From contig NZ_FNSD01000001.1 of the NCBI RefSeq assembly GCF_900105625.1, positions 682,001-746,000 on the forward strand: a DNA stretch of 64,000 nucleotides, in the 5' to 3' direction. The translations under genes and the position numbers were made by a program. Shown here one piece after another: positions 14,310 through 56,585 of the stretch (the first letter of the stretch is position 1; every line of letters begins with the position of its first letter). Below the pieces are notes generated by a model. The model was given only the letters and a program-made list of their open reading frames with translations, was not told the origin of the DNA and did no database searches. The DNA comes from Terriglobus roseus. Its GTDB lineage: Bacteria > Acidobacteriota > Terriglobia > Terriglobales > Acidobacteriaceae.

Positions 14310-15536
14310 GTGCTAAAGACTCCACTTATCTTTCTCTCGGCCGGCGAAGCCAGCGGCGACCACTACGGCGCGGAACTCATCGCAGCCGTAAAAGCCGTCC
14401 TGCCACAGGCAGGCTTCACCGGCCTGGGTGGAGCTGCCATGGAAGCCGAGGGACAGCAGCGCGTCGTCCGTGCGGAAGATGTCGCCGTCATGGGCATCAC
14501 GGAGATCCTGCGACACATTCCGCGAATTCTCGGCAGCTACTTCCGACTGGTCAAGGCCATCAAGAAGAATCGGCCCGACGTCGCCGTTCTGATCGATTTC
14601 CCCGACGTGAACTTCCGGCTCGCCAAGCACCTCAAGCGGCTCGGTGTGCCGGTCATCTGGTTTGTCAGCCCGCAGCTCTGGGCCTGGAAGCGCAGCCGCC
14701 TGCGCTGGGTGCAGCAACGCGTGTGGAAGATGCTGACCATCTTCCCGTTCGAAGAAACCTTCTATGCCAACCGAGGCGTCACGGCGGAGTTTGTCGGGCA
14801 TCCACTCGCGGAACAAGCATTGCCGACGATCTCTCGCGAGGTATATGCCCGGGAGCAAGGTCTCTCTGAAGTAAAGCAGTGGGTCGCTTTGTTGCCAGGC
14901 AGCCGCGGTGGCGAGATCGACGCCAACCTCCCCGCCCTGCTGAGTGCCACCGCCCTGCTCGGACCGGCATACGAGTACCTGCTGCCAGTAGCACCCACTG
15001 TGAGTCGCGCGCGACGCCATGCAATGGAAGTTGCAACGAACGCGTCCGGTGTAAGGCTCGTATCGGACGCCCGCGCTGCACTCCTCCATAGCCGGGCAGC
15101 CGCAGTAGCCAGCGGCACCGCTACTGTGCAGGCCGCCGTTATAGGCACACCATTCGTCCTTGTCTATCGAGTCTCCAATCTCACCTTCAAGGCAGCCAAG
15201 CGCCTTGTCCGCTACCCCGTCGAAATCCATGCCGAGGAAGATGTCCGTGGCAATCTTCCCATCGGCATGGTCAACCTCGTTGCAGGCAGACGGGTGGTGC
15301 CTGAGCTTCTTCAAGAACACTTCACCGGCGATGCTGTCGCTGCTGCCCTGAAGCCGCTCCTCGAAGAGTCACCGGAGCGTGCGGCCCAGATCGCAGCACT
15401 CGCCGAAGTCCGTCACAGGCTGCAGTCGCCCAGCAGTCGCACCGGCATCGAGAGCCTGCGTAACGCCGTACTGGAAGCTCTTGAACTGCCAGCACCTGAC
15501 CTCTCATACGCGGCGTCATCATCTGCGTCTAAATAA
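14310..15536 (+). CDS. lpxB: Lipid-A-disaccharide synthase LpxB
   Basis: This 408-residue GT-B glycosyltransferase joins UDP-2,3-diacylglucosamine and lipid X into lipid A disaccharide at the inner face of the inner membrane. The family pattern is clear: IFLSAGEASGDHYGAELI, AVMGITEILRHIPRIL, VLIDFPDVNFRLAKHLKRLG, WFVSPQLWAWKRSRLR, EFVGHPLAEQ, LLPGSRGGEIDANLP and SGTATVQAAVIGTPFVLVYR. The start is GTG at 14310. Length is normal. It shows that the organism makes lipopolysaccharide. The other lpx genes are not in this window. It follows the ABC exporter gene closely and probably shares its transcript. Confidence 0.97.
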   Translation: MLKTPLIFLSAGEASGDHYGAELIAAVKAVLPQAGFTGLGGAAMEAEGQQRVVRAEDVAVMGITEILRHIPRILGSYFRLVKAIKKNRPDVAVLIDFPDVNFRLAKHLKRLGVPVIWFVSPQLWAWKRSRLRWVQQRVWKMLTIFPFEETFYANRGVTAEFVGHPLAEQALPTISREVYAREQGLSEVKQWVALLPGSRGGEIDANLPALLSATALLGPAYEYLLPVAPTVSRARRHAMEVATNASGVRLVSDARAALLHSRAAAVASGTATVQAAVIGTPFVLVYRVSNLTFKAAKRLVRYPVEIHAEEDVRGNLPIGMVNLVAGRRVVPELLQEHFTGDAVAAALKPLLEESPERAAQIAALAEVRHRLQSPSSRTGIESLRNAVLEALELPAPDLSYAASSSASK

Positions 15537-15592
15537 CGGACAGCCCGGAATGGGCTACCCTTGCTCAGCTCCAACGAAGGACCCCCGCCAGC

Positions 15593-17575
15593 ATGTTCGC
15601 GATCCGCAAGTTTGTAGTCGCCACCAGCGCCGCCGCTCTCACCCTCACTGCCGCCGCCCAGACCAGCGGAACGCGTCAGCCTCTGCAGGTGACTGGATAC
15701 ACCATTGACGCGCAGCTTGATCCCGTCGCCCAGCGCCTGACGGCTACTGCTGCCGTGACCTTCTTGGCGGTGCAGGATCTGACCTCCGCGACCTTCGAAC
15801 TGAACAACGGCCTCCGCATCACGAAGATCACCGGTGCCGACGGCAAGACACTCGACAGCGATCGGGATGCTCGACGCTCCACCGTAACGGTGTCACTCCC
15901 GACGACGATTCCAAGCGGAACATCCTCAACCTTTACTTTCACTTATGCCGGCATACTGAAAGAAGCAGATACCAGTCCGGTGGAAGGCATCAAGACCGCA
16001 GCGCTGGCCAGTCCCGTCTCGATGCTGCTTTATCCCGGTCGCTGGTTCCCCATGGTTGGGCTGTACACCAATCGCTTCACGATGAATCTGCACGCGACGG
16101 TGCCGGCCGATGAGACGGCGGTCGGTAGCGGTTTCACCGGCAAGAAGTCGGTGCCGGGCAACAAGACCGAATTCGACTTCGCGTGGATGAAGCCGGGCTT
16201 CCCCGGCACGCTCATCGCAGGCAAGTTTCTGCCGCCGGCACGGGTCTCCGGGTCGAACCAGATCTCCATCTACGTCACCGAGCCGCATAAGGCTGCAGCA
16301 GCGGACTATGCAGCCGTGGCCGCCCAGCAGCAGGAATACTTCACCACGACCTTCGGCCAGCCGGAGAGCGGCAAACTGCAGATCGTGGAACTGCCCGATG
16401 ACGCTGTGTCGGCGTCCTGGGGGCCTGAGATCGCCGCGATTGCCGGCAACCGCATCGGCGATAAGAACAGCCATCGCCTGCTGGCCAACACCATCAGCCG
16501 GCAGTGGTGGGGATCGGAAATCTCACCTGCAAGCCTGAACGATGCCTGGATCACCAACGGCATGGCGCGTTACTCCGAGCTGATGAACCTTGAGGAGACG
16601 GGCGGCAAGACCGCGTTGCAGAATGCCATCCCCGACATCGAAGCTGGCGCGCTCGCCTACGACACGGCACCCCTGACGACACTGGCTCGCGTTGATCCCT
16701 TCTCACCGCAGTTCCAGTCCATGACGCTCGAAAAGGGCGCCATGGTCTTCCACATGCTCCGCTACCAGCTTGGCGACGACAAGTTTCTCGCGTTTCTTAA
16801 GGGCCTGCTGTCGCAATACACCGACAAGCCTGTCCGCTCCGCTGACCTGGAAGAGGTCGCCAAGGCGCAGGGTGGCGAGGGCATCAACCTGACCCCGTTC
16901 TTCGCGCAATGGCTTGACGGCACAGGCGCACCGGCGTTTCAGGACAAGTTCACGATCTACCGTCTTGGCTCCAACAAGGGCTTCCGCACCATTGGATCGG
17001 TCTCGCAGGATCTTGACCTCTTCCGTATGCCAATCGACCTGCGCGTGGAGACGGACGGCAAGACCGAGACACGCAAGATCGATGTCACCGGCACCGACTC
17101 GGCGTATACCATTGAAACTTTTGGCCGGCCGCGCCGCATCGCAATCGATCCTGACAACTGGGTGCTCAAGAGCACGCCGGACCTCGCCGTCCGCGTCGCC
17201 GTTCTGAAAGGCCAGCAACTCGTCGCGCAGGGTGATTTGATCGGCGCGCTGGCGGAGTATCAGAAGGCGCTCGACAGCAACAAGAACTCGGCTCTCGCGA
17301 ACTACCGCATTGCGGAGATCTTCTTCACGCAGCGGAACTACCAGTCGTCCGCCAACAGCTATCGCGATGCGCTGCGTGGCGATGGCGAGCCGCGCTGGAC
17401 TCAGGTCTGGAGCCATATCGGTCTGGGCAAGATCTTTGACCTGACCGGCCAGCGCGACCGCGCTGTGCAGGAGTATCGCCTGGCGGTGCAGACCAACGAC
17501 AACACCCAGGGCGCCATCAACGAAGCGCGTGCGCTGTTGCAGAAGCCATTTGAACGCGCGCGGTCGATGGATTAA
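15593..17575 (+). CDS. Secreted M1-peptidase-like protein without zinc site, with C-terminal TPR
   Basis: This 660-residue protein has a signal peptide (to about residue 22, AAAQ). A beta-sandwich N-terminal domain typical of M1 aminopeptidases follows (GYTIDAQLDPVAQRLTATAA). The peptidase-like region is about 230-440 and the TPR-like C-terminus is about 545-655 (GDLIGALAEYQKALDSNKNS). In active M1 enzymes the core reads HELAHQWWG and then NEGFA. Here the aligned residues are NTISRQWWG (299-307) and TNGMA (321-325). Both histidines and both glutamates are gone, and there is no GAMEN box. It is therefore a pseudo-enzyme, perhaps a periplasmic binding or scaffold protein. The ribosome site GAAGGA precedes the ATG. 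Confidence 0.85.
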   Translation: MFAIRKFVVATSAAALTLTAAAQTSGTRQPLQVTGYTIDAQLDPVAQRLTATAAVTFLAVQDLTSATFELNNGLRITKITGADGKTLDSDRDARRSTVTVSLPTTIPSGTSSTFTFTYAGILKEADTSPVEGIKTAALASPVSMLLYPGRWFPMVGLYTNRFTMNLHATVPADETAVGSGFTGKKSVPGNKTEFDFAWMKPGFPGTLIAGKFLPPARVSGSNQISIYVTEPHKAAAADYAAVAAQQQEYFTTTFGQPESGKLQIVELPDDAVSASWGPEIAAIAGNRIGDKNSHRLLANTISRQWWGSEISPASLNDAWITNGMARYSELMNLEETGGKTALQNAIPDIEAGALAYDTAPLTTLARVDPFSPQFQSMTLEKGAMVFHMLRYQLGDDKFLAFLKGLLSQYTDKPVRSADLEEVAKAQGGEGINLTPFFAQWLDGTGAPAFQDKFTIYRLGSNKGFRTIGSVSQDLDLFRMPIDLRVETDGKTETRKIDVTGTDSAYTIETFGRPRRIAIDPDNWVLKSTPDLAVRVAVLKGQQLVAQGDLIGALAEYQKALDSNKNSALANYRIAEIFFTQRNYQSSANSYRDALRGDGEPRWTQVWSHIGLGKIFDLTGQRDRAVQEYRLAVQTNDNTQGAINEARALLQKPFERARSMD

Positions 17576-18109
17576 CCGATCTGGCCGATTGAAATCACTT
17601 GTCGGGTCATCCGCTGCCGGTGCTTTAGGTTGCCATGAGCAAGCGGTCCGTAGGTCTGCGAACGCAACGCGCTTGTTGCGGAGTGGCATGCACGAAGCCA
17701 TGCCCCTCCGGAAACAGGACAGTCCTCTCATCAGACCACGCGAATATCCGAATTGGTCGGACACCGCCGACATCGAAGTGTAGGTTTGTTCCCGTGTCCT
17801 CTGCAGTGGTTTCTTCCCTGCGAGGGACGACCGTTGATCGTTCCCACCTTCGAGTCAGATCAATGTCGCGATCTAACGCACCAGGCCAAGCAACACCAAT
17901 TGCAAATCTTGAATCCGCTCGGCGCTTCACGCGTCTAGATGTGTGTTGGTTTTGGAACCAGCGGGCCACTCGAGAACCCGCAGCTCCTTACCGCAATGGC
18001 ACAAGGCCAAACACGCCGGGCGATGAACGGAGCCGGCGCGATGCTCTTCCCTAAAGCCGTGGGTACCGGTCGCGACCGCTCGACGACTATGCCCAACAGG
18101 GTGTCTCCA
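17576..18109. other. Gene-poor gap
   Basis: About 530 bp lie between the M1-like gene and the small secreted peptide. Open frames run on both strands (17625-17969 minus, 17635-18054 plus) but neither has a good ribosome site or recognisable protein content. No RNA gene is recognised. A weak GGCATG/CATGCC hairpin lies near 17684-17705. Confidence 0.35.
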
Positions 18110-45481: not shown

Positions 45482-47005
45482 CTACAGAGCAGCGTTCTGC
45501 GCGATGTAGTCCTTTGACTTGAACTTCTTTCCCGTACTCGCTCCACTCATATAACGGATCTTTCCAAACACCTTTCGCTCACCCCAGGGTCGATCGAACT
45601 TGCCGTACATTGCCCACGCAATCCCGGCATATCCGCCGGGATCACGACCGTCGAGGAAGTACTTATCGTTCAGGTAAATGGCCGTCTTCATCGCCTCGGC
45701 ATTGCTGGGAGACCACTCGAGGATCTTCTTCGCCCAATACATACGCATGTAGTTGTGCATCCATCCACGACGCACCATCTGCCGCTGCGCTGCATTCCAC
45801 AGTTCATCGTAGGTCTCGGCATGCTCCATCTGCTGCACGGTGTACGTGGGGTCGCGCACATCGTGGGCATGCTTCTCTACCGTCGTCACAGCCCACGGCT
45901 CGGCGCACTGCGGATCGTCGTAATGCGGGTTGTACTTCACAAAATTCACGCATAGCTCGCGCCACGTCACCATCTCATCCAGAAAGCTATCCGCGCTCTC
46001 ACGCCATGACGGATTCTTCGCCACCGCGGCTTCAATCTCCATCAGAATGCGCAGAGGACTCACATGCCCATAGTGGAGATAGGGACTAAGCAGCGAAGTG
46101 CCATCCACCTCCGGATGGTTGCGTCTCTCCGCATACTCGCCAAGCATCTTCGTCACGAACAACTTCAGGCGTGCCTGTGCCGCGTGGGCTCCTCCCACCA
46201 GGTCGGGTGCCGCCCCCACACTACGATCAAGGTCTTTCCATCCCGCCGTCATATCTGCCGCAGGATCATCCGCGACAAAACTCTTCGGCCTCTTCCACGC
46301 ATGCAGCGCCCGGGGATTTTCATAAGGTTCCACATACTCCGGTACCATCCGCCACAGCCGTGTGCGAATCGTGTAAGCCGCATACTGCGCCTTCTCAAAG
46401 CGCTTCATGGGCACGATCACATCCGCATCCACCGTCCAGAAAGGCACCTTGATACCCTTTGCAACATGCTGCCGCCAACCCTCCGGCACGCGCATCGGGT
46501 TCTCGTCCCCGATCACGATGGCAGCCTCAACATCCCGGAACATGCGCAGCCAGTCCTCACGCGGCGCATTGCGTAAGACAAAGCTCACGTTGCGTTTCGC
46601 CAGGTCTGCTTCCACATCACGCAATCCCTGGTTCAGAAATACGTAGTGCCGCAGGTTTGCATGGGGAAAGTTGCTGATGCCCGCAAAGTACACGACCACC
46701 GGCAGTCCAAGCGCGTTCGCCACCGCCACGGCGCAGTCCAAAGCAGCATTGTCCACGCCTCGCTGCGCGCGCTGCATCCAGTAAACGACCGTCTTGCCGT
46801 TTGTATCCGGCGGCCCATCACGCCGAACCGTCACACGATCATTGCCCGCAAGCACGCGGAGCGCCTGTGGCAGGTCCGCATGCAGTGCGCGCGCAGCGGC
46901 CTCTTCGCGCGCCGCGCGTTCCGCACCCTGGCCGTCGGGCCGTGCTCTACCGGAAATTGCCTTCTTGCCCCGCGGCGCAGAGGCTCGCACACTCACGCTA
47001 TCCAT
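45482..47005 (-). CDS. phr: Deoxyribodipyrimidine photolyase, class II
   Basis: This 507-residue FAD enzyme uses blue light to split cyclobutane pyrimidine dimers in DNA. The class II hallmarks are VTVRRDGPPDTNGKTVVYWM near the N-terminus, NAALDCAVAVANALGLPVVV, the FAD-binding region with DEMVTWRELCVNFVKYNPHY, and the C-terminal MRMYWAKKILEWSPSNAEAM followed by YFLDGRDPGGYAGIAWAMYG. The first 50 residues are basic and alanine-rich and may be a loose N-terminal extension. The start is the ATG at 47005. It is the light-related gene closest to the phytochrome locus and may be part of a light-response region. Confidence 0.95.
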   Translation of the reverse strand: MDSVSVRASAPRGKKAISGRARPDGQGAERAAREEAAARALHADLPQALRVLAGNDRVTVRRDGPPDTNGKTVVYWMQRAQRGVDNAALDCAVAVANALGLPVVVYFAGISNFPHANLRHYVFLNQGLRDVEADLAKRNVSFVLRNAPREDWLRMFRDVEAAIVIGDENPMRVPEGWRQHVAKGIKVPFWTVDADVIVPMKRFEKAQYAAYTIRTRLWRMVPEYVEPYENPRALHAWKRPKSFVADDPAADMTAGWKDLDRSVGAAPDLVGGAHAAQARLKLFVTKMLGEYAERRNHPEVDGTSLLSPYLHYGHVSPLRILMEIEAAVAKNPSWRESADSFLDEMVTWRELCVNFVKYNPHYDDPQCAEPWAVTTVEKHAHDVRDPTYTVQQMEHAETYDELWNAAQRQMVRRGWMHNYMRMYWAKKILEWSPSNAEAMKTAIYLNDKYFLDGRDPGGYAGIAWAMYGKFDRPWGERKVFGKIRYMSGASTGKKFKSKDYIAQNAAL

Positions 47006-47155: not shown

Positions 47156-47722
47156 TTAAACCGAGGCTCGCCGCGACCACACCAGGTAAGTCCCCCACGC
47201 CGCCAGCGTGCAGTTATCTTCCACGCGCCCATCCAGGATCATCCGCTCGAACTCTTCGACGCTCACGCGATGCGCGGTCAGGCCGTGCTCTTCCGCTTCC
47301 AGGGCGGTCTCACCCTGCGTCAGGTCCACCGCCAGCCAGACATGGTGCCGCTGACGCATGGCGCCGTACGCAATCCAGTTCGCACCAATCTTTGTCAGCG
47401 TGCCGGCACTCAAACCGGTCTCCTCCTGCAGTTCGCCACGAGCCAGCGCTTCCACGTCGACATCCTCGCCCTGCTCCCAGCCGCCCTGCGGGAACTCGTA
47501 GAAGCTGCCCTCCACGCAGTAGCGGTACTGATGAACGAGTGTCAGAAAGTCGCCGTTCGCGGTTCGCTCCAGCGGAATCACGATGCACGCGGGATCCTTG
47601 TCCAGCACACCGTACAAACCACGCACGCCATCCGTACGCTCAATGATGTCTTCCCGCACACGCGACCACTTGTTCTGATACACCGTGCGACTGCTGATGG
47701 TTTTGATTGGGGGCTCTTCCAT
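47156..47722 (-). CDS. Nudix hydrolase, ADP-ribose pyrophosphatase-like
   Basis: This 188-residue protein starts at the ATG at 47722 (MEEPPIKTISSRTVYQNKWS). The N-terminal dimerisation strand region and LVHQYRYCVEGSFYEFPQGG resemble ADP-ribose pyrophosphatases (NudF/NudE-like). The Nudix box is GGWEQGEDVDVEALARGELQ and EETGL. Compared with G-x5-E-x7-R-E-U-x-E-E-x-G-U it has two extra residues between the first Glu and the helix, and glycine where arginine is usual. The metal-binding EExG part is intact. It likely hydrolyses an NDP-sugar or ADP-ribose. It is not obviously linked to its neighbours. Confidence 0.85.
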   Translation of the reverse strand: MEEPPIKTISSRTVYQNKWSRVREDIIERTDGVRGLYGVLDKDPACIVIPLERTANGDFLTLVHQYRYCVEGSFYEFPQGGWEQGEDVDVEALARGELQEETGLSAGTLTKIGANWIAYGAMRQRHHVWLAVDLTQGETALEAEEHGLTAHRVSVEEFERMILDGRVEDNCTLAAWGTYLVWSRRASV

Positions 47723-47895: not shown

Positions 47896-49416
47896 TCACT
47901 TCCCGTACATCACGACCGTGACAAGATTCCGAAGTTCTTGAGCTGCCCGAATCTCGTTTTTTGACCATGGGAGAGATTGACCGGTCATCTGTTCCTTCCA
48001 GGCTTCGAAAGATTTGCGCGGTCCAACGCGGAAGCCGTCGTCAGAAGGCACTACCGGCTTCTCAGGGTTACCTCCCCATAGAACGGTCCGTGCTACCTCA
48101 GATCGGAAGAAGAAGATATAGGTTGCTGGTTCCCGCTGGATCAGCAGTGCGATAAGACCCGATGCGGTGTCGCGCATCGCCTCAGTCAGCGGGAAGTGAT
48201 TCTTTAGGGAGCGCGTTACGAATGTGCTTGCCATGCCTGCGGACTGCAATTGACGAATCAGTTGCATGAGATCGTCGTAGCCCGGCGTCGTACCCAGTAA
48301 GTGAGTCTTTTCGCCCAGGACCACAGCAACGCCGTCCGCCGGTATTAGATCAAGCAGGGTTGGTGAGTAGTTCACCAGGCCCAGCAGCGGGTTGGCCGAA
48401 CCAGCCATCAGTTCCAAAAAGCTTGCCTGCATCGACGTAGCGTGTGACTGATAGGCAGACGACTCCAGTGTCTCGCGTCGTGAGATTTCTCCGGAAAGCA
48501 CTTGCCCGATGAACGTGCAGGCCTTCCGAACCTCATAGCTGACGAACTTAGGCGCTTGATGATGGCACGCAATCAGTCCCCACAATCTGCCGTCGAGAAT
48601 GATGGAGACCGACATTGAGGCTGCGACGCCCATGTTTTTCAGATATTCGCAGTGAGTGGGAGACACGCTGCGAAGTGCCGCAAAGCTCAGGTCTGCCGGG
48701 CGGCCGCTGTCCGGGTTGATGACAGGAATAATCGCAGCAGGAGTGTAGTCGACGTCCACGATGTTCCGTATGGGATTCAGTAGATACAGCCTTCTCGCTT
48801 GTTCCGGAATGTCGCTGGCGGGATACCATAGGCCGAGGAATGAGTCGACCCCTTCGGCCACCGTTTCGGCCACCACTTCGCCTTCGTTGCTCTCGGCAAA
48901 CCGATAGATCATGACACGATCGAAGCCGGTCATAGACCGTATGCCCTGCGTTGACTCACGCAGCATTTCAGCCAGAGAACTTGTGGCGTGCAGTTTCGAT
49001 GTCAGATGGGAAACCCTCTTATAGAAATCCAGAAACCTCGCGCCTGCCGTGAGCGAAGCCGCTTCAAGTTCAAGGTAGGAGAAACCATCATGACGGTGCA
49101 CGAACCCGTCGAATTGCGACTCCGTGTTTGAAGCAAACAGACCGAGTTCTACAGGGTTGTTGTCGCGCGGGTCTACCGAGTCTAGGGCGAACCGGACTTT
49201 AGCAATTTGACTCGTATCCAGGAAGCTTGAGATATCCTTTCCAAGAAGTTGGTCAACCGGCTTGCCGAGCATCCATTCGGCGTTCTCGCTGACTTGAGCG
49301 ATGATGAGCTCTGGTTCTCGTAAAACGAACAGGAGTCCGTGGGGCTGGATTGCACCCGGTATATGTATGGGCTCTCTGGCACAGGCTTCGAGGTCTACTA
49401 CAACTTCATCAGTCAT
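47896..49416 (-). CDS. Bacteriophytochrome photosensory core (PAS-GAF-PHY) with no output domain
   Basis: This 506-residue red/far-red photoreceptor is made only of the sensory core. The PAS domain (about 15-115) has the biliverdin-binding Cys at C12 (LEACAREPIHIPGAIQPHG). GAF (about 140-310) has FDRVMIYRF, WYPASDIPEQARRLY (D202), SPTHCEYLKNMGVAASMSVS and the conserved His in LWGLIACHH. PHY (about 325-505) has WGGNPEKPV and the tongue motif GPRKSFEAWKE. It ends two residues after the last PHY helix (VTVVMYGK), so no histidine kinase or GGDEF follows. A PAS histidine kinase lies 96 bp upstream on the same strand. AAAGGA precedes the ATG. Confidence 0.93.
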   Translation of the reverse strand: MTDEVVVDLEACAREPIHIPGAIQPHGLLFVLREPELIIAQVSENAEWMLGKPVDQLLGKDISSFLDTSQIAKVRFALDSVDPRDNNPVELGLFASNTESQFDGFVHRHDGFSYLELEAASLTAGARFLDFYKRVSHLTSKLHATSSLAEMLRESTQGIRSMTGFDRVMIYRFAESNEGEVVAETVAEGVDSFLGLWYPASDIPEQARRLYLLNPIRNIVDVDYTPAAIIPVINPDSGRPADLSFAALRSVSPTHCEYLKNMGVAASMSVSIILDGRLWGLIACHHQAPKFVSYEVRKACTFIGQVLSGEISRRETLESSAYQSHATSMQASFLELMAGSANPLLGLVNYSPTLLDLIPADGVAVVLGEKTHLLGTTPGYDDLMQLIRQLQSAGMASTFVTRSLKNHFPLTEAMRDTASGLIALLIQREPATYIFFFRSEVARTVLWGGNPEKPVVPSDDGFRVGPRKSFEAWKEQMTGQSLPWSKNEIRAAQELRNLVTVVMYGK

Positions 49417-49512
49417 TGTGTGATGTTCCTTTCCGTCCGAGAACGCTCCATCTTCGCGGGACTACGCTGCTCTGAAGGAAACCAAGTAACACATACACGG
49501 ATCGGCATCGTA

Positions 49513-51504
49513 TTAGGAAGAAATCGCCTTGTTCGGCTCGTACGGGAAAAGAATTGAAAAGACGGTTCCATGTCTGTTCGGTTCCGTCGAACTCTTCAGT
49601 GAGATTCGCCCTTCATGCTTCGCAATAAGGTCCTTTGCTATCCAGAGTCCAAGTCCCGTGCCCGTAATACCCTTTGTTGTGTAGAACGGCTCGAAGATGC
49701 GATGCCGTGTCTCGAGCGGGATGCCATGTCCACTGTCTGCGATCGTGATCCGGATGCCGCGATGTTTGCGGTATCTCCACGTAACCGAATTACGCAGGCG
49801 GACGCGCAGGCGTGTCCCAGGTTCGGAAGCTTCGACAGCGTTCGCGATTAGATTGGATAGCGCCTGGCGGATGTCTCCAGCAAGGCAAGTGAGTTGCTCT
49901 GTCCTCTCGTACTCACGCCGAACGACGATGCCTGCCGATGTAAGCCTGGGTCGATAGAACGACAAGATCGAATCCAGCAGTTCAGCCATACGCGTTGGAA
50001 CCGGAGACGTTGCTTGATTGTGGAAGCGAAGCGTATGAGTTGTGATTTCTGTAACGCGCGCCAATTCTTCCTGTGCCGTGCGCACATACTCCTGGGAGGT
50101 TTTTGTGAGTGATGGCTGCGTTCCTAAGAGGTACAGCAGGTTCGTAACGGATGCCAGTGGATTATTGATTTCATGAGAGATGCTTGACGCGAGACGCCCG
50201 ACCGCTGCCAGCTTTTCCGTCTGACGGATGGCTTCTTCACTGCGTTTCTGCTGGGCTATGTCCGTGGAACTACCAATCCACTCCATCGTTTCGCCGGTGT
50301 CACTGATACGCGGGACAGCCCGATGAAGAAACCAGATGAATTCGCCGTCATGCCGGCGTAACCGATACTCCACGATGAAGGTGTGCTGCTGAGCGACCGC
50401 TTCCCTCCAGACTTTGACGGAGCGCTCCAGGTCTTCCGGATGGATAAACTGGAACCATCCTTGTCCATAACAGGCGCTCGCTTCCACTCCTAAAAACCTC
50501 GCGCAGGCCTGGCTGACGAACTCGCACTCTCCATACTTGTTCGAAGTCCATAAGAGTTGTGGAATGGACTCCGTAAGAAAATGGAGACGCGATTCTTTCA
50601 GTGCGATCTCTTCCCTCATCTGGGTTTGCTCAGTCGTGTCGCGCTGAATCGCCATCCAGTGCGTGTACCACCCCTTATCATCTGCAATTGGCACGATTGA
50701 GAGATCGACCGTAAACTCTGAGCCATCTTTTCTGTAGTTCGTCATCTCCTCACGGATCGGCTTCCACGAATTGAGAGCAGTACGGATCCGATCCAGAGCT
50801 GCGCGATCCGTTTTTGGGCCTTGCAGTATTCGCGGAGTTTGGCCGAGGACTTCGCTGGCCGTGTAGCCGGTCATCTTTTCGAAAGCCTGGTTGACGTAAA
50901 GGATTCGAGGTCCCGGCAGGTCGACTGGCTCAGCGTCAGTGATTAGAAAGACGTCTTCAGCTCTTTCCACTGCAGTGAAAAGTAGCCGCATCATGTCGTT
51001 ATCTGCTCGCTCTGCATTCAGTTGGCGTTGGACATCATCGTGACGTTGGATGGCGAGGTCGCCTAATTTCTGCTGGGTCACATTGACGGAGAATCCGACG
51101 ACGCCAATGGGGGCGCCCTCGCCGTCTCTCAGCAGCGAAAGCGATAGGTGGATGTAGATAGAGTCCCCGGATCGTGTTCGATTTCTCTGCTCACCATGGA
51201 ACTCGCCCGTAGCGAGCACCGTTGGAAACACCTGTTCGTAGAGCAGGTGCCGATCTTCCTGGGGATAGAGAATCGAGACGCTCCTCCCGATCAATTCCTC
51301 CGGTGAGTACCCGTAGATCTGTGAGGAGGCGCGATTACACCCTGTCACGATCCCCTCAAGATCCGTAACGATGATGGAGTCATGCATCTGGTCGAGGATG
51401 GCTGGCTGCAGAAACATCCAGTCAGCAGCGCTCGAGTGGGGCACACCCGAAATTACGGACCGATCGTTCCCGCGAGTTGCACGTTCTCTTGCGTCACGCT
51501 TCAT
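49513..51504 (-). CDS. Cytosolic multi-PAS sensor histidine kinase
   Basis: This 663-residue kinase starts at the ATG at 51504. It has three PAS domains (about 35-145, 175-295 and 310-420); the second looks LOV-like in layout (GQTPRILQGPKTD at 221-233, with Pro in place of the photoactive Cys). A HisKA helix pair carries H444 in SSISHEINNPLASV. A HATPase_c domain follows, with N box NLIANAVEAS, G1 ADSGHGIP, F box FEPFYTTKG and G2 TGLGLWIA. No membrane segment is present. It is the first gene of a likely two-gene unit with the output-less phytochrome, which may supply light input. No cognate receiver is adjacent; the NtrC-like regulator at 54963 is a candidate. Confidence 0.93.
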   Translation of the reverse strand: MKRDARERATRGNDRSVISGVPHSSAADWMFLQPAILDQMHDSIIVTDLEGIVTGCNRASSQIYGYSPEELIGRSVSILYPQEDRHLLYEQVFPTVLATGEFHGEQRNRTRSGDSIYIHLSLSLLRDGEGAPIGVVGFSVNVTQQKLGDLAIQRHDDVQRQLNAERADNDMMRLLFTAVERAEDVFLITDAEPVDLPGPRILYVNQAFEKMTGYTASEVLGQTPRILQGPKTDRAALDRIRTALNSWKPIREEMTNYRKDGSEFTVDLSIVPIADDKGWYTHWMAIQRDTTEQTQMREEIALKESRLHFLTESIPQLLWTSNKYGECEFVSQACARFLGVEASACYGQGWFQFIHPEDLERSVKVWREAVAQQHTFIVEYRLRRHDGEFIWFLHRAVPRISDTGETMEWIGSSTDIAQQKRSEEAIRQTEKLAAVGRLASSISHEINNPLASVTNLLYLLGTQPSLTKTSQEYVRTAQEELARVTEITTHTLRFHNQATSPVPTRMAELLDSILSFYRPRLTSAGIVVRREYERTEQLTCLAGDIRQALSNLIANAVEASEPGTRLRVRLRNSVTWRYRKHRGIRITIADSGHGIPLETRHRIFEPFYTTKGITGTGLGLWIAKDLIAKHEGRISLKSSTEPNRHGTVFSILFPYEPNKAISS

Positions 51505-51747: not shown

Positions 51748-51779
51748 AAACGGGGAGAGCCTAATGGCTCTCCCCGTTT
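51748..51779. terminator. Strong terminator-like hairpin
   Basis: AAACGGGGAGAGCC-TAAT-GGCTCTCCCCGTTT is a perfect 14-bp stem, followed on the plus strand by TCTTTTC. The only gene pointing at it is the minus-strand hydrolase that ends at 51915, 136 bp away. No plus-strand gene precedes it. Confidence 0.8.
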
Positions 51780-53907: not shown

Positions 53908-54165
53908 CTACTTACCGGTCAGATTGCCCGGCGACGTCATGCACTGAAAGCCAACACGGTTGTGTGCGCCGTCACAGAAGGGACGCTTCTCGCTGGCGCC
54001 ACAACGGCACAGGGAAATGGCAGGTTTGCCGGTCAGGTCCCACTCCTTGCCATCCGCATCGACCAGAAGGATATGTCCTTCCACGCGCAGAGGTCCGTTG
54101 GGTTTGACTGTGATCTTGACTGGTGCTGCCGAGGTCTCGGGGATTGCGGGGGTTGCGATGTCCAT
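53908..54165 (-). CDS. CDGSH iron-sulfur domain protein
   Basis: This 85-residue protein starts at the ATG at 54165 (AGGAG 4 nt upstream). The C-terminal half has CRCGASEKRPFCDGAHNRVG, matching C-x-C-x2-(S/T)-x3-P-x-C-D-G-(S/A/T)-H, which binds one [2Fe-2S] cluster with three Cys and one His. The N-terminal half (VKITVKPNGPLRVEGHILLV, DADGKEWDL) is the usual strand pair before the cluster. Such proteins are small redox or cluster-transfer factors in the cytoplasm. It lies 43 bp upstream of the hydrolase start on the same strand and may share its transcript. A longer frame to 54252 is not needed. Confidence 0.92.
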   Translation of the reverse strand: MDIATPAIPETSAAPVKITVKPNGPLRVEGHILLVDADGKEWDLTGKPAISLCRCGASEKRPFCDGAHNRVGFQCMTSPGNLTGK

Positions 54166-54323
54166 GCTGCTCCTGAAGGCCGAACCGAGATACGAAAAGC
54201 GCGCGGCAAAGCGCAAGCTTCCCGAACTGCGATTGGGCGTTTTGGGCAGCATAGCAGACCACTAGCATCAGTGAGTCGCACCCCACGCAAGCACGTCCAG
54301 CCGTGGACCTCGTGATCTGAGTC

Positions 54324-54956
54324 TCAGGTTTTCGGTCCCACTTCCGTGTGGCTGATCGTTCGAAGACGGACGCGAAGCGAGTTTGCGAGTTCCTTCATCT
54401 GCCGCGCCTTGTCGGCCACCGAAGGTGTCAGAGCCTTCTCGCGGAGTATGAGGTCGCTCTGCAGCAAAAGTCCGGTAATGGTCGATTGCAGCTCCTGCGC
54501 GACGGCTGTTGTCGCCTCGCGACGGCCTATCGCTTCGGCCTGCTCTCGCCCTTCCAGCAGGCTTCGCAGAAGTCGCACTGCGCCGTTCACACCAAGGTTC
54601 GCGAGGTTGATCTCCAGTGGCACGGCACCCTCCGCGTTCTGCCATACCATCTCGGACGTAGTGATTTCCGCTTCGGACAAGGAGGAGTCGAGCAGAACGA
54701 CGGTCACTGGATCTCGCCGCAATCTTGCTAATGCTGCTCTGCGGCTTCGGGCGATTTCGACTACAGCATCTGCTTCTCGAGAGAGAGCGCGCGCCAGGTT
54801 TTCAGCACCGTCAATTGCGGTGACGATGAGTACAGTCTTTTCCAATTTCCGCCTCACAGCTGGACGGTTCACAAAGTTTGCAGATCTCAATAAGCGGCAG
54901 TCTTGGCAGGCTGTGTGGCGCTTTCCTATCGCTCGAACGCGACAGTGAAAGGTCAT
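54324..54956 (-). CDS. Receiver-like two-component protein, degenerate
   Basis: The ATG at 54956 lies 7 nt after the stop of the NtrC-like gene and gives 210 residues. Its first 37 residues look atypical, and a TTG at 54845 with GAGG upstream would give a cleaner start (LEKTVLIVTAIDGAENLARA). The next 85 residues follow a receiver pattern: hydrophobic strand, helix, then VTVVLLDSSLSEAEI with a possible phospho-Asp. The usual N-terminal acidic pair is missing. The C-terminal 80 residues (GREQAEAIGRREATTAVAQE, LQSTITGLLLQSDLILREKA) could form a dimerisation and histidine-phosphotransfer-like helical pair without a clear His. A role as partner of the upstream regulator is inferred. Confidence 0.55.
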   Translation of the reverse strand: MTFHCRVRAIGKRHTACQDCRLLRSANFVNRPAVRRKLEKTVLIVTAIDGAENLARALSREADAVVEIARSRRAALARLRRDPVTVVLLDSSLSEAEITTSEMVWQNAEGAVPLEINLANLGVNGAVRLLRSLLEGREQAEAIGRREATTAVAQELQSTITGLLLQSDLILREKALTPSVADKARQMKELANSLRVRLRTISHTEVGPKT

Positions 54957-54962
54957 GACGGT

Positions 54963-56585
54963 CTAAGAGTCTGTGATGCCATACTCCTTTAGCTTGCGGT
55001 AAAGCGTCGTCTTCCCTATCCCGAGTAACTTGGCTGCCATCAGCTTGTCGCCGTGTAACTGCTGGATCGTGTTCAGAATGGCCTCGCGCTCTAATTCAGC
55101 GATAGAAACTATCGCAGGTAGCCCCGCTCCGCCACGTGCATTCCCGGATTGGGACCGTCGCTCATCCACCCGTGTCAGATCTCCGGCGAAATCGTCGCTG
55201 CCACCGACGCTCTGCATCTGCGTGGGCAGGTCGCCCATGTGGAGAAGCGATCCGCTCGAGAGCGCACACGCACGCTCAACGGCGTTTTCGAGTTCACGAA
55301 CGTTGCCAGGCCAACTGTAATGCGACATCACCCGCATAGCTTCTGGTGTGAAGCGATAGCCGATTGCGCTCTCTCGGCGCATTCGCTCCAGAAAGTGCTC
55401 GGCCAACAGCGGTATGTCTTCGCGCCGCTCACGCAAGGGTGGCATACGCAGACCCACTACGTTCAAGCGGTAATAAAGATCCTTGCGAAACAGCCCCTGG
55501 TCGACCAGCGACGAGAGGTTGCGGCTGCAACCAGCGAGGATCCGCACGGTTAGCGGGGCCCCCTGCCGCGCCCCCGGCGGCCGCACCTCCCGCTCCTGGA
55601 GCGCGCGCAATAGCTTAGCCTGGATGTCCAGCGGCATCTCGCTGACCTGATCCAGGAACAGCGTTCCGCCTTCCTCTGAGGTCAGAAGAGCGTCCTTGCT
55701 ACGATCGAAGCCGGTGTAGGCACTCCGTGAGTAGCCGAAGAGTTCGCTTTCCAGAACGGCAGGCGCTAACTGACCGCACTCGACAACAGCGAACCTGCGA
55801 GTGCTGTTGGGACCGGTCGTATGGATAGTTCGCGCGACAGTTTCCTTGCCTGTGCCGTTCTCTCCCGCAATGAGGACAGGGTGCGCCGATAGCGCAACCT
55901 TCGCCACGATGCGATAGAGCTTCTCCATCACAGGAGACGAACCCACAAGGTGGCCGTGCCCCTTCTGCTCCCGAAGATTTTGCTGAACACGCCGACTTTC
56001 CAGCTCAAAGCTCCGACGCTGTCCCGCCCGTTCCAGCACGCCGGTCAGCTCGTCCATGGCGAATGGCTTCGTCAGGTAATCCGTCGCACCCAGGCGAATG
56101 GCATCCACTGCGGAAGCGACTGTTGCGAACGCCGTCATTACCACGATGGACGATCGTGGACGCTTGATACGGATCTCCTCCAAGAGCGAGAGGCCGCCAG
56201 CAGGCATCTTGAGATCCATCAGCACGACGTCGATGGCATGCAGTCGAACGGCCTCGCGAGCCTCGTCGGCCGAATTCGCCGCATGCACGGCAAAGCCCAT
56301 TCCTGCCGCAATCTCACAGCATGCCTTCAAGACAGGAGGGTCATCATCCAACACCAGCAACTGCACTTTCGCGGCGTGAGCGTTCACGCCAATCGGATCG
56401 TCCGATAGCGGGAAGCGCAGTGAGGCCGCCGTCTGCTTGCCAAGCGGAGAAAGATTAGTCAATTCACCCGAAAATTCCGACACGGTCCTCCAATCTTTTA
56501 GGTTTGCGATTCGTTCAGGGCGAAATTGCTCTGTCACGACGCCGGTTCGGCTAAATGTTTGTCCGCGTGTTTTGGTGTCTGACAT
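54963..56585 (-). CDS. NtrC-family response regulator (receiver, AAA+, Fis-type HTH)
   Basis: This 540-residue regulator starts at the ATG at 56585. After a 70-residue N-terminal extension comes a receiver (about 75-190, acidic DDD 80-82, phospho-Asp D124 in VVLMDLKMP, K173 in LTKPF). The AAA+ domain (about 210-440) has Walker A GENGTGKE and Walker B GGTLFLDQVSEM. The C-terminal Fis-type HTH is ILNTIQQLHGDKLMAAKLLG followed by KTTLYRKLKEYG. The sigma54-contact loop GAFTGA reads SAYTGF (288-293), so contact with sigma54 may be lost and it may work as a different kind of regulator. It is followed by the receiver-like gene. Confidence 0.93.
   Translation of the reverse strand: MSDTKTRGQTFSRTGVVTEQFRPERIANLKDWRTVSEFSGELTNLSPLGKQTAASLRFPLSDDPIGVNAHAAKVQLLVLDDDPPVLKACCEIAAGMGFAVHAANSADEAREAVRLHAIDVVLMDLKMPAGGLSLLEEIRIKRPRSSIVVMTAFATVASAVDAIRLGATDYLTKPFAMDELTGVLERAGQRRSFELESRRVQQNLREQKGHGHLVGSSPVMEKLYRIVAKVALSAHPVLIAGENGTGKETVARTIHTTGPNSTRRFAVVECGQLAPAVLESELFGYSRSAYTGFDRSKDALLTSEEGGTLFLDQVSEMPLDIQAKLLRALQEREVRPPGARQGAPLTVRILAGCSRNLSSLVDQGLFRKDLYYRLNVVGLRMPPLRERREDIPLLAEHFLERMRRESAIGYRFTPEAMRVMSHYSWPGNVRELENAVERACALSSGSLLHMGDLPTQMQSVGGSDDFAGDLTRVDERRSQSGNARGGAGLPAIVSIAELEREAILNTIQQLHGDKLMAAKLLGIGKTTLYRKLKEYGITDS

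Follow-up and report, generated by a model that had tools for sequence, protein, structure and literature searches.

The window analysed here is a stretch of 64,000 nucleotides of Terriglobus roseus DNA (contig NZ_FNSD01000001.1, positions 682,001 to 746,000). It encodes an output-less, or short, phytochrome of 506 amino acids, which according to its open reading frame and Pfam matches is made of PAS, GAF and PHY domains only (47896..49416; all window features given in this text lie on the minus strand). The gene upstream of it, across a gap of 96 bp, encodes a soluble histidine kinase of 663 amino acids (49513..51504). We propose that the two genes form a two-gene phytochrome system in which the short sensor controls the neighbouring soluble PAS kinase non-covalently, and we put the probability of this reading at roughly 0.55. 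Its direct basis is the gene content, the intact sensor core, the lack of an output domain in all of the three orthologs, the conserved adjacency of the two genes and the presence of a heme oxygenase in all three genomes, while chromophore binding, physical contact, the direction of the effect and the response regulator are what we infer from it.

In the phytochrome, the PAS_2 domain (residues 12-120, 49057..49383, 89.5 bits), which starts at the biliverdin Cys12, the GAF domain (residues 148-302, 48511..48975, 61.3 bits), with the PASDIP residue D202 as well as H255, Y258 and H285, and the PHY domain (residues 328-504, 47905..48435, 168 bits), with the PRKSF tongue motif, all score above the Pfam cut-offs and follow each other in the order of the phytochrome superfamily. 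The protein ends two residues past PHY, and no further Pfam domain was found in it; its score against NF041576, the NCBIfam equivalog model of BphP, is 349 bits and does not reach the cut-off of 1040. Cys12 aligns with C24 of DrBphP, which places it at the N-terminal biliverdin Cys of the canonical BphP. Residues Y171, D202, Y211, R217 and R249 correspond to Y176, D207, Y216, R222 and R254 of DrBphP; S252, H255, Y258, S267, S269 and H285 to S257, H260, Y263, S272, S274 and H290; and W447, R467 and S469 (the latter two within PRKSF) to W451, R466 and S468. These matched positions of the chromophore pocket and the tongue, from DrBphP Y176 to S468, are identical across all three short phytochromes, and the position of DrBphP F203 is occupied by Tyr in all three and in 7 of 57 others. 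In an alignment that kept 59 of 77 rows after 18 duplicates or fragments had been dropped, 71 positions reached a conservation of at least 90% among 56 other phytochromes. At 66 of them all three short phytochromes carry the same residue; of the other five, positions 30 and 436 differ in all three and three positions differ in one ortholog each. The Pfam matches and the DrBphP alignment bear out the original prediction, which had recognised complete PAS, GAF and PHY domains with the biliverdin Cys, PASDIP and PRKSF and an end directly after PHY. The sensor core appears intact in the three orthologs, and biliverdin binding and photoconversion are predicted from it.

The two further orthologs come from a genome of the same genus (G645, 71% identity) and from one of another genus of the same family (G702, 56%). 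In register with the window protein, both stop after PHY, at 506 and 512 amino acids, so that a covalently attached output module is absent in three of three orthologs, which stop at residue 506-512. In each of these genomes the short phytochrome has the kinase ortholog as its immediate neighbour. The kinase of G645 is 81% identical (query residues 24-659), and 7 bases separate its end from the stop of the phytochrome; the two frames of G702 overlap at their ends by 29 bases. The pair is convergent in both relatives and co-directional in the window, two layouts that a single-gene inversion would relate. The loci were compared by frames of at least 100 amino acids at 1e-10, with 19.5 and 19 kb taken from the relatives and the full 64 kb from the window. 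Kinase, phytochrome and a photolyase (70% identity) are common to the window and G645; the window and G702 have only the kinase and the phytochrome in common, and so do G645 and G702 if antisense frames and a distant match to a kinase domain are disregarded. No third gene common to all three of these stretches was found. The adjacency, for which a check in other genomes had been suggested, therefore holds wherever the short phytochrome was found. At 0.546, the guanine-cytosine (GC) content of the pair is lower than that of the window (0.599), and among 104 sliding stretches of 1800 bp the five with the lowest GC all overlap the pair; the pair of G645, at 0.566, also lies below its flanks (0.605 and 0.613). 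These values fit, without proving it, a joint transfer of the two genes.

The distribution of the short phytochrome is sporadic (2 of 19 genomes in the window's genus and 1 of 62 in that of G702; all survey counts include the window's own genome). Phytochromes were found in 14 of 150 genomes of the same family, with no ortholog except the window's own, and at 1e-20 in 9 of 396 genomes drawn from the phylum, while a sample of 397 genomes of the order, cut at 1e-95, returned the window genome, G702 and two long phytochromes. The search of 398 family genomes gave phytochromes in 42 of them at 1e-30 (46 places), with G645 and G702 as the two true orthologs. Open frames of at least 749 residues hold 39 of the 43 places outside the three short phytochromes; the remaining four are the frameshifted genes of G640 and G383 and the matches of G043 and G623 at contig starts, both of which begin less than 40 bases from the start. 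In these larger searches the best three candidates per genome were scored, and a kinase ortholog hidden by paralogs may be missed. A scan of named genomes by exact peptide words, which can miss relatives, found no ortholog and 16 relatives at 36-39% identity. Among 134 plasmid records no phytochrome match of at least 60% identity was found (the best among the matches listed was 41.7%), nor any match to the window kinase at 1e-60.

The putative partner is, by its Pfam domains, a PAS-PAS-PAS-HisKA-HATPase protein. PAS1 (residues 35-138, 51091..51402) and PAS3 (residues 329-411, 50272..50520) are kept in the three orthologs; the HisKA domain (residues 436-493, 50026..50199) contains the SHEINNP phospho-acceptor box and is followed by the HATPase_c catalytic domain (residues 544-656, 49537..49875), and with the H, N, G1 and G2 boxes all present the protein belongs to the HisKA-type histidine kinases. 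PAS2 (residues 200-292, 50629..50907) is LOV-like, scoring 145 bits against NF052306 and 141 bits against NF052652, the LOV-kinase and YtvA models, both below the curated cut-offs. LOV domains carry their adduct-forming Cys at a motif position where this PAS2 has Pro: the motif reads GQTPRILQG, and Pro stands there in the kinases of the window, G645 and a third family genome, G624. The window kinase accordingly matches the earlier description of a soluble upstream kinase with three PAS domains, one of them LOV-like without its Cys, but the description does not extend to the G702 ortholog, which lacks the LOV-like PAS and shares PAS1, PAS3 and the catalytic part with the other two. Because of this absence the LOV-like PAS is not essential to the pair and is unlikely to be a general docking site; a docking mode shared by all three pairs would point to PAS1, PAS3 or the DHp region as candidates.

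Phytochromes usually signal through a covalent helical relay that leads from PHY into the output module, and the PHY tongue refolds upon light-driven isomerisation of biliverdin. In the proposed system the short phytochrome would bind biliverdin at Cys12 and photoconvert between red- and far-red-absorbing states; isomerisation of the bilin by light and the ensuing rearrangement of PHY and the tongue would change the surface of the phytochrome. The adjoining PAS kinase would receive this change non-covalently, most likely via PAS1 or PAS3, the PAS domains kept by all three kinases, and its kinase or phosphatase activity would then be switched toward a response regulator encoded elsewhere. Action of the phytochrome in trans on the kinase is plausible since the reading frame is not truncated, the adjacency is conserved and a heme oxygenase is present in the genome. 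An elaboration that we consider unlikely is a heteromeric photoreceptor kinase with two inputs, a docked phytochrome for red and far-red light and the PAS array, including the Cys-less LOV-like domain, for a second cue such as flavin, redox state or another ligand, with G702 reduced to the phytochrome input. If the two-gene reading is true, a phytochrome signal can cross a non-covalent interface, and the pair would offer a natural parallel to the short LOV proteins as well as a two-part red-light switch ready for use in optogenetics.

Compared with known systems, the short phytochrome shares with the canonical BphP kinases (DrBphP, PsBphP; PDB 8sgk, 8u4x) the PAS-GAF-PHY core, the N-terminal biliverdin Cys and the PASDIP and PRxSF motifs, and in several plasmid records a heme oxygenase gene adjoins the phytochrome as well; unlike them it has no output module, and the kinase is a separate multi-PAS gene. 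The latter differs from the LOV blue-light kinases in the missing adduct Cys and, in G702, in the missing domain. Short LOV proteins (PpSB1-LOV, RsLOV, DsLOV) are likewise photosensors without a fused effector, and the relevant passages of PMC4335406 and PMC6798134 presume that they transduce their signal in trans; the likeness is one of analogy and not of homology, as a bilin and red light stand here against the flavin-binding LOV fold and blue light there. A precedent for action in trans is provided by phytochromes acting on the repressor PpsR, as described in part of PMC10813442. The RpBphP1-PpsR2 pair, in which the binding of phytochrome and repressor is light-driven, resembles the proposed system in that the phytochrome signals through binding another protein, but RpBphP1 has C-terminal output domains and its partner is a transcription factor and not a kinase. 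Engineered DrBphP heterodimers, according to passages of PMC12329595, retain light control of the kinase; being made of fused sensor-kinase chains, they demonstrate only that phytochrome protomers can be freely paired by design and not that an unfused kinase is controlled. FiDCB of Fischerella sp. PCC 9605 (PDB 9jry) differs, being described as a dual-cysteine phytochrome. Among the titles and abstract beginnings listed by searches of an open-access library no work with a natural output-less phytochrome as its subject was found: the matching wording in PMC9953108, PMC12471899 and PMC8739951 concerns, in the passages concerned, response regulators, and a passage of PMC9953108 mentions standalone PHY domains in Leptothermofonsia kinases.

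Several observations weigh against the two-gene reading. The short phytochrome together with the kinase was found in only three genomes, and since the genes converge in the relatives, the pair does not generally form one operon. In G702 the pair (0.583) shows no GC contrast with its flanks (0.598 and 0.563). Matches to the window kinase at 1e-60 or better occur in 103 of 150 family genomes (the best after the window's own is 38% identical over residues 183-659), and at 1e-85 or better in 17 of 398, own genome included. The best match there after the window, G645 and G702 is that of G624, 53% over the first 430 residues, and the further ones have 36-45% identity over part of the query. The kinase of G624 (915 amino acids, L098 8171-10918) has five PAS stretches, and no phytochrome was found by the genome search or within 20 kb around it in this 88%-complete assembly, so that this type of kinase also exists without one. 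Finally, in phytochrome two-component pairs of the Cph1-Rcp1 type the response regulator is encoded next to the sensor; here, by contrast, the proteins scanned at the three loci (8 in the window, 10 in L084, the locus of G645, and 10 plus the heme oxygenase in L085) include none immediately next to the pair.

It is possible, though on balance doubtful, that the short phytochrome does sense light but acts in trans on a different partner (some other kinase, a transcription factor or the photolyase) and has the kinase as its neighbour only through travel on the same piece of DNA. The low GC content suggestive of joint acquisition, the sporadic distribution, the lack of an operon in the relatives and the photolyase, also a neighbour in two of the three loci, would all agree with this. 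The adjacency, however, has outlasted the change of orientation and, for G702, a sequence difference of about 44-57%, and no other gene of the compared stretches has stayed in all three loci.

A relic or a non-signalling protein, such as a bilin store or a decaying fragment of a fused phytochrome-kinase, seems rather improbable. The absent output domain would suit it, and so would the kinase tree: 22 fused output kinases of the family form one clade (support 100) without the three split kinases, which group with weak support (80 and 67), yet the union of split and fused output kinases is not rejected by the approximately unbiased (AU) test (p 0.287, 9 of 61 rows left out), which would allow a fission origin of the kinase half. 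The phytochrome tree speaks against it. The three short phytochromes form one clade (Shimodaira-Hasegawa-like approximate likelihood ratio support 100) apart from 30 fused ones of the same family (own clade, 99), and a joint clade is rejected (AU p 0.0048, quick trees). This test covered 30 of 34 same-family fused rows, with the groups chosen after the first tree; the long-branch rows L016 and L069 (same family) and L028 and L054 (outside it) were left out, and L008 and L060, same-family rows that the first tree had placed elsewhere, were grouped with the others. Gene fission from the family's fused phytochromes is rejected for the sensor half, which is, judged by these trees, not a fragment of a resident fused phytochrome. 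Conservation of the sensor core in three divergent orthologs, with no kinase remnant found past the stop, likewise argues against a relic.

At the GAF dimer interface, the residues of the short clade that align with DrBphP E306, L314 and V318, the last of which we take to be an interface position, are T, G and R. Passages of PMC12329595 name F145, L311 and L314 of DrBphP, together with salt bridges, as belonging to the dimer interface. Although the two helices of the interface are enriched in clade-specific residues (odds ratio 3.1, p 0.005), we do not claim a remodelled interface as a mark of hetero-association, because three of eight other clades gave odds ratios of 3.6 to 10.8 at p < 0.05.

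Pairing of the short phytochrome with the fused phytochrome-kinase of the genome, which it would modulate, is very unlikely. One heme oxygenase match exists in each of the three genomes, as a check proposed with the original prediction had asked for the window genome, where it sits directly before the fused phytochrome-kinase; in G645 it lies beside a second, long phytochrome frame. These arrangements would permit such pairing, but the two phytochromes of the window genome are only 33% identical and in G702 no phytochrome other than the short one was found. Since the G702 heme oxygenase, the only one adjoining a short phytochrome, overlaps the phytochrome start by ATGA and no second phytochrome was found there, the short phytochrome seems tied to bilin supply and is unlikely to be an accessory of a fused one. 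The other phytochrome of the window genome (L062 5995-9313, C1, about 1911000-1914300) has 896 amino acids in the order PAS-GAF-PHY-PAS-HisKA-HATPase and stands right behind the heme oxygenase.

A sequencing frameshift or assembly break of an ordinary fused phytochrome has next to no probability: real cases of frameshifted fused phytochromes do exist (L060, L079, L102), but here the stop falls at nearly the same place in three genomes and the 173 bp past the window's stop hold, in three forward frames, no open continuation resembling an output domain, so that local truncation, for which relatives were to be consulted, is rejected. L079 and L102 continue as kinase, but in another frame. L102 (2965-5264, NZ_CP095067.1) is a phytochrome-kinase on a Hymenobacter volaticus plasmid annotated as two overlapping genes, and its frameshift separates the photosensory module from the kinase at nearly the same point as in the natural short form. 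In G383 (L060/L061, 5792-8688) a phytochrome frame with PHY is followed by overlapping GGDEF and EAL in other frames, an arrangement suggestive of a phytochrome-GGDEF-EAL gene disrupted by frameshifts.

Around the pair, the next gene downstream of the phytochrome encodes a NUDIX hydrolase (47156..47722); no homolog was found in the 19-kb stretches of the two relatives, and it is probably a bystander. The photolyase (45482..47005) is best described by TIGR00591 phr2 (447 bits, below the cut-off of 550), a model that we take to stand for class II photolyases. The nearby class II photolyase noticed earlier is thus present, but as a neighbour of the pair it recurs in G645 and not within the G702 stretch. 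Between the kinase gene and an S15 peptidase gene lies a terminator-like stem of 14 pairs (51748..51779), which is a consensus match only; the scan overall was no richer in terminators than shuffles (5 versus 4.1). Upstream of the peptidase, 53908-56585 encodes a sigma-54 response regulator (54963-56585), a 210-residue protein without a Pfam match and a CDGSH iron-sulfur protein; because the regulator lies beyond the peptidase gene and the stem and nothing equivalent occurs in the stretches of G645 and G702, it is not counted in the system. In the G645 locus L084 a REC-flavoprotein lies about 6 kb from the pair, and at 14521-17632 a receiver-domain thioredoxin-reductase-like protein adjoins a cyclic nucleotide-binding HATPase sensor protein.

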